From assembly GCA_963924555.1 (NCBI GenBank), contig OZ004585.1:8324556-8388555 (forward strand): a DNA stretch of 64,000 bases, written 5' to 3'. The notes beneath the pieces are model-generated. The model was not told the DNA's origin. It searched no databases and saw only the letters and a program-made list of their open reading frames with translations. The stretch's first letter is position 1. Each line of letters starts with the position of its first letter. The DNA is from Crambe crambe. Lineage: Eukaryota > Porifera > Demospongiae > Poecilosclerida > Crambeidae. The position numbers and the translations under genes are program-made. Shown one piece after another: positions 1 to 64,000 of the stretch.

Positions 1-1118
1 TGAACATTGTGTTTCCAATCAAACACATGTAGCTGTAACCAGGCACCTGAATATGTATGGATACAATGGATCATTCCTAATAACAATGGAAGATAATTCT
101 CCTCACAATATCGGGCAAGTTTTTGGTAGTGAGATGGAGTTTGGGTTGGGCACGAACATGTTGAGTGTAGTTAGTGGTACCATTCTCAAGATCAAGCAGT
201 GGACATACCTCTTGGAATAAAGCTGCTGTGTCCAGCTACATTAAAGTTGATGTAATGATTGAGGAAGGTCACATGACCTATTGTGATTTGAGTACCTGTA
301 GGAAGTTAGAGGTGTTGGTGCAGTCTTGAGCTGTTCCTCTGCACAGTTTGTTGATCACACACCATCCACAGGCATTCCTAGTCTCAACACACTCACTACA
401 GCTGTTTCAAATACATACTCATTGAGTTCATCACTGTATTTGGGTACAATAATGCTATCATACCTATTAGTAGCATTGCATCTATAAATAGTCGTGGCAT
501 TGTCTGTCCTGTCAAATGGCATATTGACCAGTGAACTCACAAAACTGAAGTGCATCACTAAAGGAAGAAAAACATTACTCATGGGAAGAATATTTACAAT
601 GTGTACAATACATCATATTATAACTATACCTGCTTGGACTCCATCATACATAAAGGTTTGGTTGGTGATGTCACAGGTGTAATGTGTGAGTGGGACAATC
701 TCCATTGCAGGGACAGTGATGTTGAACCTTCCTCTGCTGTCTTCAAAGTGACACACGTAGGTCTCGTTGTCGAGGTTAGCTGGCAACCCTGGACCACCGA
801 CTGTCACATTCAACTAGATCAAAACAAATAAGATGACATCAATAGATGTATATATTGTTTTAAACTCACAATTTGCTGGTTGTCAAGTACAAACTGATCA
901 GGTGAGATGGTGTTCATTATGCACTGGGTGCTAGCATTGGCTGAAGGGCCACTGCTAGAGATCCACCTGGTGCTGCTGGTGGAGTTTCCATCCCTGCACT
1001 GCGACCGTCGAGAACACTTGTTCTCTACCACACACCACCCACAGAGAGGGTTGTCCTCCATGAGGCAACCAGAGCAGTCATTGTTTGATGAACACTGCTC
1101 CAGTGGCATCTTGAACAC
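1..1118 (-). CDS. Gene A exons 4-9: PSI1, IPT1-like, PSI2, start of IPT2-like
   Basis: Exon 4 (870-1118) is a cysteine-rich PSI domain with the core [19 protein letters not shown]. Exons 5-6 (630-813, 464-557) encode an IPT1-like domain with [12 protein letters not shown] and paired Cys strands. Exon 7 (296-401) is PSI2 ([14 protein letters not shown]). Exon 8 (107-235) has [17 protein letters not shown], and exon 9 (1-46) begins VPGYSYMC, the GY-C strand typical of plexin IPT2. The alternation of PSI and IPT is the plexin signature; MET and RON have a single PSI. Confidence 0.82.
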
Positions 1119-4100
1119 CTACCATATAAAAAATCAAGTGCTTTCTTGATGAGTACATGCCTGATAGTGTTCACATACTGAGTTACTAGTTGACACTATA
1201 ATGTAGTTGAGTCCTTCATACCACTGTAATGCCCACACCACAGGAGCAATCTTATCAGACCTATCGAAACCATCCCTAAACACATTGAGTGTTCTGGTGG
1301 TATTAGATATGGCAAACTAAAGAGAGAAAGAAAAAAAAACAGATAGAGAAAGGAGGGAGAATTATACCGTAACTCCATCACTTCCATAATCATGATTAGC
1401 TAACTGACACACTCCAATCACTTCAACACAATGGCATTAGAAAGTGACGAGAAATGTCTCAGCACGACTTTGCTCTCATCATCTCAATCGCTCACTTTCT
1501 CGCCTAGCTTGAAGTCTTTACCTCTTTCTTGTTCAAGACTCTTGCTGTTCTTTGGCTCTCATCTGAGAGCAAAATGTGCTTGGAGACATTTACCGAAACA
1601 TTCTCCTTTACCATGTTATACCGCACATGTGCCAATCAGTGCATGCTTGCCAATGCATGTGGACAATGTTGTTTGCACACACACTGATACATAGCTAACT
1701 AAAAAAAAGAAGAGTGGCTAGCCTCTTTGCTACACATGCTGGTTGCTAGATGCAACCCATAACACATCCTGCGGTCTTAGCTCATTCTTTCTTTAGATGT
1801 CACTACTTTAGCAATCATAGACTTAAAGATGGGACATAATCCATACTGAAGTTGACTGAATAGAAGCTTATCAGTGCTCATTTTGTGTCTTGAAAACTAT
1901 AGGAATTCAGCAATTCAGTGTATATCTGCACTCAGGACATTGTAGCCTACTTTATTTCAAAATGAATGCTGAAGCTATAGAGCATATTAAAACATTGCGT
2001 ACAGATTGGCCACCTAGTTTCCTATCCCGGGTACAGAGTCTACCAGAAATGGAGAGCTATTATCATCATTATTATAAATCATACAGACTGATAGTAAAGT
2101 TATTTATTTATCTATTTTGGGGGTGGGGGCTATACGTACCCTCCCTATTCCTATTCCTATAAAAAAAAAAAATTAATGTATAGCTCAGTTCTTCTTACTA
2201 TTTGTCCATTTCTCACCTTATACACATAATTATAAAAATTGCCAATACCAAAAGCCACCACTAGCAAAGAAACATCATCTATCCTGAGAGCCAATGATGC
2301 AGTCACATTGTAGGGTTGATTTGGATTGTCAAAATTAATGACTCCAACATTAATTTTATCTCCCCCATCCTCTTTATCACTCAAAATGACATTTGTAGGA
2401 AGGTTGCAGATTTCTTCAGCCTGCATAAATGAATATCATTAACTACTACAATCATGCATAACTACCAATAAAGGCGACTATCTGGCTATGCACGGTGGTA
2501 CGTTTCATGTGCACGCGCAATGATGCATGATGATGCGTATCGAGCACGTGCATTATTAGCTAGTACAGTATAATTATAGCTAGCTAGCTACACAAGCTCT
2601 ACTAACAGTACTCATAAAGGACAGACAGGCTCAGAATAGCCATTCAAAACGGCAGTTCTAAGCATTGAACAGCAAGAATACTAGCTGTGTAAATACTAAT
2701 CTTACTAAGCCATGTTGCTCAGTGCGCATTATTTAGAACTCTCCACAGCCAAGAAGCTGAGAGAAAACATTTTGTAGAAACATTTGACCCCACAAATCCC
2801 TGTACTTTTCATTATTTATGCCCATGCAGCAAGTGTTAAGCAATTCCTTCAAACATTATAATCATCCTTGTAGGACTCTGGCTTCAAGCTGGTGATCCCT
2901 CAGTGTATCTTTACCACCTTTTACTTTTCTCTTCACTGTAAAGCATTTAGAAATAAAATAAGTCAAAGGTTGCACTTAAGTGCCAAGGCATTCCTAGTCT
3001 TTTAAATGCTGTGTCTACAGTTCCGGCAACGGGATCAGTCCATTCAGGCCACCTGGCACCCAGGATTCTTCACAGATTCAGACTGGTCCCGGCAACAGGA
3101 CACTTAGAAAAATTTTCAAAGATTGAGGTTGCCACTGTCTGCACATGCGCTGATTTTTCCGCGATTTTGCAGAATCCGGATACTTGCCTGTATATGTCCG
3201 CAACACTAAACATCATAGGTCAAAGTATTTTATACTTGTTGCTCAAAATGTCTACTACTGCTAGCTACTCAGTTGCTCAGTTGTCCTTTTCTCCCTCAAA
3301 AAGCTGGACCTTACAGGAGTGTGTCTCAAGTGGATACTGTTAGGGCAATATTCGACAGAAAGGATTCATTCGTGTGTCTTCCCACGGGCTATGGCAAGAG
3401 TCTATGTTATCAGACTATTCCATTCCTTTCTTCAAGGACTTCAAGCTTGGTTGTGCAGGCTATTGTTTTGACAATACTAGCTATATGACTCTCTTCATTA
3501 TAGTGGAGCAGCATAGCTACCAAATTCACTTTTTGATAAAAGCACCAAAATTTATACACATACTTTTAAGTATTGTGAACATGTTCAGATATTGGGGTGC
3601 ATGTAATTGCGCCATTGTCAGCCATGGCTGTCATTTTTAAAATGGCCGCCATGGAATATTGAAAAATCAATATGCTGATCCTTCAAAGCTAATAACAGTA
3701 TTGCTATTTTGGTATTGTCCGCTAATTTAGTATGATGTGACAAACATCCTGAACCTTGCACAACTGACTGATTTGCATGTTCAAAACTGCACAGCCTTTG
3801 TCCAGGCGGCTCGGCACATCTAATGATCTTTTGTGATTATTTTAATATAGTTATTAATATCAGAGTATCAGGACCCTTTTGCAAATGAAAACTGTGTTCT
3901 TTTTATCCTAAGTGGTTCTCAGATCATGTGAATTGGACACTAAACTATTTTTAGTAACCATAATGTTAAAACGCAGGAGACCCTATGTATATAGGAACAA
4001 AGATTTGTCTTGACAATAGCAGGTGCATGGATGATGTCGAGGGAATGCAACTCCAGGCATGCCCTATTTACTACTTATTCCAAATAGACCATGCTGTCTA

Positions 4101-63900: not shown

Positions 63901-64000
63901 CACATCTATCTGCACTATAGTTGAATTTGAGCCTCTGGGAACAGATCTAGTGACCAGTATGAGTCCAGAGGGGTCAGGCATGACTGATAATTGAAGGCCA
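60928..64000 (-). CDS. Gene G: receptor tyrosine kinase, 3' part (5' end outside window)
   Basis: Twelve exons: 63904-64000 (cut by the edge), 63744-63833, 63032-63088, 62679-62931, 62526-62615, 62379-62471, 62077-62294, 61913-62025, 61676-61841, 61474-61616, 61107-61243, 60928-61043. The first three are membrane-proximal IPT strands ([22 protein letters not shown]); then a helix ([20 protein letters not shown]), the loop [46 protein letters not shown] and KWMAPES. All catalytic residues are present. The tail has [10 protein letters not shown] and NYEVPV, likely phosphotyrosine docking sites. Exon phases equal those of C. The ectodomain upstream is presumed plexin-like but not visible. Confidence 0.87.
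63148..63407. repeat. 129-bp direct repeat, two copies
   Basis: The segment beginning gtcacagttcaaaggtcaat at 63148 recurs at 63277, an exact 129-base period, with few differences. It lies in an intron of gene G and has no coding meaning. Confidence 0.9.

Follow-up and report, generated by a model that had tools for sequence, protein, structure and literature searches.

A stretch of 64,000 nucleotides from the sponge Crambe crambe (contig OZ004585.1, here C8; the window, C8:8,324,556-8,388,555) holds a tandem family of receptor genes on the minus strand, in which a plexin ectodomain (Sema, then three PSI domains interleaved with IPT domains) leads into a single membrane helix and then a tyrosine kinase. 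Such a family, with a three-PSI plexin ectodomain fused to a kinase, had been proposed from the letters of the window (the original prediction), and is confirmed by a single open model in each of genes C, A and G. Our best explanation, held at a probability of about 0.8, is that a demosponge plexin cluster became a modular receptor family, with one type of ectodomain, different cytoplasmic ends and blocks exchanged by duplication and gene conversion. The anatomy, the open frames, the motifs, the near-identical ectodomains on unlike tails and the block-wise divergence are direct observations. The main new result is a pair of near-identical ectodomains carried by a kinase receptor (gene H) and a plexin (gene I); the plexin-kinase layout itself has already been published, as the accessible part of a 2019 survey makes clear (PMC6374515). 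The searches covered this one genome, of 143.1 Mb in 119 contigs.

Gene C is the reference for the family (37402..23838, minus strand; positions given without a contig count from the first base of the window). It comprises 24 exons and encodes 1607 residues with no internal stop (exons 1-6: 37402-36407, 34226-34017, 33131-32994, 32933-32685, 32628-32445, 32382-32289; exons 7-12: 32231-32126, 32065-31937, 31876-31778, 31721-31619, 31556-30950, 30891-30715; exons 13-18: 30054-29976, 29780-29568, 28161-28072, 27822-27775, 27511-27232, 26803-26714; exons 19-24: 26377-26270, 25891-25641, 25125-25013, 24882-24717, 24527-24385, 23988-23838). The two other frames of the same exons contain 90 stops in 1584 codons and 137 in 1579. 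Exons 1-3 (32994..37402) encode a signal peptide-like start and the Sema domain, which was recognized by a profile match and a weak fold match, not by Pfam. Exons 4-11 (30950..32933) hold PSI1, IPT1, PSI2, IPT2, PSI3, IPT3 and the start of IPT4, and the IPT-type exons 12-16 exceed the domain set that had been listed. The membrane helix lies in exon 17 (27232..27511), which ends in phase 1, as it does in H and I. The kinase occupies exons 18-24 (23838..26803) and carries the motifs GKGHYG, VAIK, HRD, DFG and DVWSFG. The Pfam search that had been suggested as a check returned PSI three times in C (56 bits), TIG in four stretches (115 bits) and PK_Tyr (265 bits); the outcome was thus three PSI domains and not the single one named as contrary evidence. 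The expected Sema family, PF01403, was reported in none of C, E, D and H, and no plexin cytoplasmic family was reported in C or H beside the kinase. With phmmer against the PDB, residues 432-1075 of C align collinearly with Plexin-A1 (expectation value, E, 2.6e-59) and residues 184-1082 with Plexin-A4 (E 7e-59), MET being far weaker (3e-25). The domain order is therefore that of a plexin ectodomain. For the Sema domain, a profile of five family members searched against the PDB matched the Sema domains of Plexin-A4 and Plexin-A2 (E 1.4e-6) and Sema1A (8e-4). A low-confidence structure model of exon 1 (predicted local distance difference test, pLDDT, 49.9; predicted template-modelling score, pTM, 0.52) found only semaphorin or plexin Sema chains among its 14 best PDB matches, at template-modelling scores of just 0.34-0.40, and lends weak support. 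A long CT/GA microsatellite (23838-24239) lies directly upstream of the last exon of C, and similar runs stand beside the GAP exons of I.

The exons of all genes were curated by hand, guided by comparison of the tandem paralogues; automatic gene finding was dropped, as it skipped kinase exons or gave models that strayed into repeats. All models had GT-AG prescribed at their exon boundaries, and those of A, G, H and I also took the phases of C for exons 2-23. Matching boundaries and phases are therefore not independent proof of the models. Independent support comes from the open exons of like content found at the projected places, 24 each in A, G and H, and exons 1-17 in E and I. Genes A, C, G and H are each open across 24 exons, in a single model that spans ectodomain and kinase. 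The open frames of the original prediction hold up; its 25-27 exons become 24 in C, and the matching phases of A and G are those imposed from C.

Genes H and I stand head to head about 15 kb past the window, with their ATG codons 198 bp apart. Gene H, on the minus strand, has 24 exons, 1576 residues and intact kinase motifs, and Pfam reports PSI three times, TIG four times and a kinase at 264 bits. Gene I, on the plus strand, is a partial model with Plexin_cytopl at 488 bits (positions 2-389 of 441) and Plexin_RBD at 113 bits; the acceptor used to join its GAP exon 7 is a guess and differs from AG, and the model stops before the last exons. Over exons 1-16 the two genes are 84-100% identical. 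Their synonymous divergence (dS) is 0.04 in Sema, 0.11 from PSI1 to IPT4 and 0.06 in IPT5-6, and identity in 15 of the 16 introns is 77-100% (46-63% for shuffled sequences), intron 5 differing in length. Their helix exons match at the DNA level over about the first 125 bases and then diverge, leaving 58% protein identity across the exon. This exon ends in phase 1 in I, C and H, and the exons after it encode the GAP in I and the kinase in C and H. Another two Sema exons, one minus and one plus, face each other head to head at C8:8039587-8041534; they are 52-53% identical to I and recall the H/I arrangement. Just past gene I, a frame at C8:8426048-8426275 resembles an SH3 domain by eye and probably belongs to the next gene.

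The comparison of C with I gives a mosaic. The dS is 1.89 in exons 1-3 (Sema), 0.18 in exons 4-12 and 1.30 in exons 13-16. Synonymous differences fall at 63 of 394 sites within exons 4-12, versus 297 of 436 outside (Fisher p ~1e-54). The introns follow a similar course: introns 4-8, 10 and 11 resemble each other between the two genes (70-95%; shuffled 44-55%), introns 3 and 9 score at the level of shuffled sequences or close to it, and introns 2, 12, 13, 15 and 16 equal that level; introns 1 and 14, being too long, stood outside the comparison. Exons 4-12 of C form a block that is closely common to G, H and I, and the kinases of C and H have a dS of 1.29. This block of low dS is the pattern that gene conversion between old paralogues would leave, and plexins and plexin-kinases of the cluster would so appear to exchange ectodomains.

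The cytoplasmic ends of two further genes in the window differ again. Gene D (38620..52203, minus strand) has a plexin-type ectodomain (52203-42555; 17 exons modelled, 1193 residues) and kinase exons at 41360-38620; Pfam reports PSI, TIG and PK_Tyr (232 bits). Exon 1 is split in two, and one IPT exon was not found. In alignment with C, VAIK is replaced by IAIR, HRD by HRN, DFG by DYG and DVWSFG by SAVWSFG. We take IAIR and HRN to mean the loss of the catalytic lysine and of the HRD aspartate, and the kinase of D, judged by these motifs, looks inactive, a pseudokinase. Gene E (53160..58325, minus strand; 17 exons, 1241 residues) has a plexin-type ectodomain and no kinase. It corresponds to exons 1-17 of C in the same phases, with a stop about 25 residues past the helix; Pfam reports TIG four times and PSI in two stretches. 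Between the stop of E and the start of D (<1 kb) there is neither a match to the kinase exons of C nor a GAP match. For E and for D, Pfam by itself accepts just two PSI stretches, the third PSI exon being recognized by alignment with C. The original prediction had given C and D, and probably A and G, one layout. This applies to C, and to A and G once their flanks are included; D departs from it in its pseudokinase and in its two unjoined parts. The prediction had overlooked the pseudokinase of D, the lack of a tail in E, and the neighboring GAP plexin that is nearly identical.

Several points weigh against a modular family with exchanged blocks. The models come from genomic sequence alone, are curated by hand and have partly weak splice signals; in C, for example, the acceptor of exon 11 and the donor of exon 23 score low on a generic matrix. 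The first GAP exon of I lies about 10 kb from the helix exon, and the join between them was deduced from phase and plexin-like sequence. The helix exon and the kinase exons of D were modelled as two unjoined parts. The near-identity of H and I could also reflect nothing more than a very recent duplication, with no exchange still going on. The ratio of nonsynonymous to synonymous differences (pN/pS) between recent copies is 0.53-0.93 in Sema, a value that rests on few changes (about 10 synonymous in the H-I Sema), and 0.17-0.19 in the kinase; because the Sema counts are small, no claim of positive selection is made.

Whether the kinase descends from that of MET and RON bears on the origin of the family. 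The kinase of C scores 194 bits with AXL, 186 with MET, 185 with RON and 183 with FGFR1, and a profile of the family kinases scores 247 with AXL, 245 with MET and 242 with FGFR2, RON being absent among the 60 matches listed. An EGFR entry tops both lists, for C because its chain holds two kinase copies at 131.6 bits each. In a tree of 14 rows, from which two near-duplicate Src-like rows were left out, the family forms one clade (100/99) adjoining AXL with weak support (55/40), and the approximately unbiased test does not reject a tree that groups it with MET and RON (p-AU 0.37). The kinase phylogeny that had been proposed as a check thus neither joins the family to MET and RON nor separates it from them, and these comparisons give no basis for assigning the kinase to MET over AXL. 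It is conceivable, though we consider it unlikely, that the genes are MET/RON orthologues that kept the full plexin ectodomain, in which case the fusion would predate the split of sponges from other animals. The scores of MET and RON among the best matches, and the grouping that is not rejected, fit this scenario, but AXL scores as well or better and adjoins the family in the best small tree, and the ectodomain is nearest to plexins and locally near-identical to that of a GAP plexin. Moreover, the accessible text of the 2019 survey reads the plexin-kinases that it describes as gained independently more than once (PMC6374515). We give even odds to a single gain of the kinase in the sponge lineage by a local plexin, independent of MET and of the bilaterian plexin-kinases. 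In favor of such a gain, plexin GAP genes and kinase receptors have in common one cluster, the same phase-1 junction and an almost identical ectodomain. However, an old fusion can seem recent through gene conversion, and this scenario is drawn from one genome. The kinase and Sema comparisons of C and H, moreover, are saturated or nearly so (dS 1.3-1.8), and the fusion is therefore older than the H/I pair.

Plexin-type ectodomains bind semaphorins and dimerize. In the modular family that we favor, an ectodomain (Sema, three PSI, an IPT stalk and a helix exon ending in phase 1) would have been joined at the same phase-1 intron to varied tails: the plexin RBD-GAP in I, an intact-looking tyrosine kinase in A, C, G and H, a pseudokinase in D and a short tail in E. 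Duplication and gene conversion would then swap ectodomain blocks among copies with different ends. Semaphorin-like ligands on neighboring cells would dimerize the Sema-PSI-IPT part; the kinase forms, once dimerized, would phosphorylate in trans, and plexin I, with the same ectodomain, would act through its GAP to inactivate Rap. D and E might tune, block or act as decoys. Because H and I have a common ectodomain, one ligand could reach both outputs, and plexins and plexin-kinases may more generally read shared ligands with different outputs. Expression, ligands, signalling and opposed outputs are in this scheme what we infer. A bolder and rather doubtful proposal is that this animal, which has no nerves, possesses a combinatorial locus of receptors, in which variable Sema heads, a stalk homogenized through gene conversion and interchangeable outputs (GAP, kinase, dead kinase or none) would read shared ligands with opposed effects, like paired immune receptors, perhaps for sponge cell recognition. 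The neighboring kinase receptor and true plexin, with almost the same ectodomain, show how a swap of the plexin-to-MET kind can happen, and locate it within a single tandem cluster, at the phase-1 intron that follows the membrane helix. This makes it possible to test directly how MET-type receptors arose. H and I may be a natural pair of receptors that differ mainly in output.

The published counterpart was given the name Met-LP in 2019, for kinase receptors of Lophotrochozoa and Echinodermata whose ectodomain is that of a complete plexin (PMC6374515). The accessible part of that survey, which included one sponge, reports no Met-LP outside Bilateria, and calls the Met-LPs polyphyletic (PMC6374515). 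It places Met and Met-LP in Bilateria, with no plexin-kinase in its single sponge, in contrast to the present family (PMC6374515). The original prediction left it undecided whether the family was already published; the layout was, being known as Met-LP since 2019, and its presence in sponges, to the extent of that text, was not (PMC6374515). Genes C and H resemble Met-LP in their complete plexin ectodomain, membrane helix and tyrosine kinase, and in the starfish a Met-LP adjoins a plexin gene, as in the present cluster (PMC6374515). As far as Met-LPs are described there, the sponge family differs in being large, with pseudokinase and tail-less members, and in its kinase receptor and plexin with near-identical ectodomains. 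With plexins it shares the order of Sema, PSI and IPT, the Plexin-A1/A4 match of C, and RBD and GAP in I; it differs in that a kinase (A, C, G, H) or pseudokinase (D) replaces the GAP, and E has neither. With MET and RON it shares a Sema-PSI-IPT ectodomain and a tyrosine kinase. The arrangement that had been likened to MET/RON is accordingly borne out in the replacement of the plexin GAP by a kinase; the ectodomain is not the truncated one of MET, which has one PSI and four IPT domains (PMC6374515), whereas C and H have three PSI. Amphimedon queenslandica, in the same accessible text, has two full plexins and four (Plexin-A1 to -A4) with short intracellular parts, as in E and a member at C8:8.20 Mb, and no kinase is reported for these four (PMC6374515). 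No sponge plexin-kinase was found in the literature by title and start of abstract, a partial coverage with most subscription journals outside it, so that absence is unproven. The accessible parts of PMC8242945, PMC6792448, PMC8662651 and PMC9798719 describe no sponge plexin-kinase fusion. Titles and abstracts on gene conversion and paired receptors apparently contain nothing on such a plexin/kinase case.

The remaining members in the window are near-copies and remnants. Gene A (1..8514, minus strand) shows exons 1-8 and part of exon 9 in the window and is a near-copy of C, with exons 17-24 being 98-100% identical; it extends 7.8 kb to the left to reach its kinase and is complete only with that flank (24 exons, 1601 residues). 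Gene G (61087..64000, minus strand) shows exons 15-24 and part of 14, that is, the end of the ectodomain, the helix and the kinase; it starts 5.6 kb beyond the end of the window and is complete only with the right flank (24 exons, 1571 residues). B (10648..19432, both strands) is a rearranged copy or remnant, with a Sema start on the minus strand, the Sema piece after it inverted (18515-18891, plus), IPT exons like those of C, and IPT and kinase pieces like those of D; exons 2-10 were not found in B. It recurs about 31 kb away (C8:8304471-8312718) with the same inverted Sema piece, and the damaged unit was therefore duplicated together with an A/C-type gene. F (59377..60563, minus strand) is a deletion remnant in which a Sema start is fused in one frame to a kinase C-lobe (Pfam PK_Tyr 44.5 bits, second half).

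Across the genome, 50 candidates were scored per search, and the counts are lower bounds. The PSI3-IPT3 exon of C has at least 37 matches. Of the 22 with E <1e-49, 15 fall in C8:8.03-8.41 Mb; the other seven are on C18, C6 and C10, at C8:6.70-6.77 Mb (three) and at C8:3.07 Mb. For Plexin_cytopl (GAP) there are at least 47 matches, all within C8:8.055-8.424 Mb, in the same cluster. The member at C8:8.20 Mb, on the plus strand, has a short tail, and the 5 kb beyond it contain neither a kinase nor a GAP match. Several matches elsewhere in the cluster contain stops, which, with the rearranged B and F and the loss of catalytic residues in D, would suit a cluster made mostly of decaying duplicates of little function. 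We hold this to be very improbable: A, C, G and H are open throughout, kinase motifs are retained in all four despite the C-H dS of 1.29, the kinase pN/pS is 0.36 for C-H and 0.19 and 0.17 for the recent copies, and at C18, C10 and C8:3.07 Mb PSI exons again have kinase exons about 3-6 kb away.

Among minor observations, the open reading frames at 9342-9920, 12754-13233 and 41933-42241 match no Pfam family above the cut-off. Short in-frame repeats reading FIRGSTVVLYQRLHCC occur in introns of B and D (12754-13233 and 43505-43828, minus strand). At C16:4.97-6.05 Mb lies a large array of tyrosine kinase genes that, unlike the intron-rich plexin-kinases, consist of one exon each and have long open frames. 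Tandem silicatein-type genes, with serine in the cathepsin active site, are found at C15:865549-882985. A search with the silicatein-type active-site pattern gave five matches and a reversed control none. The fifth match, on C9, is of the cysteine kind, and frames near two of the loci look cathepsin-like by eye. The four at C15:865-883 kb read CG[A/S]SYAF, which we take to be the silicatein-type active-site motif and a sign of a siliceous demosponge.

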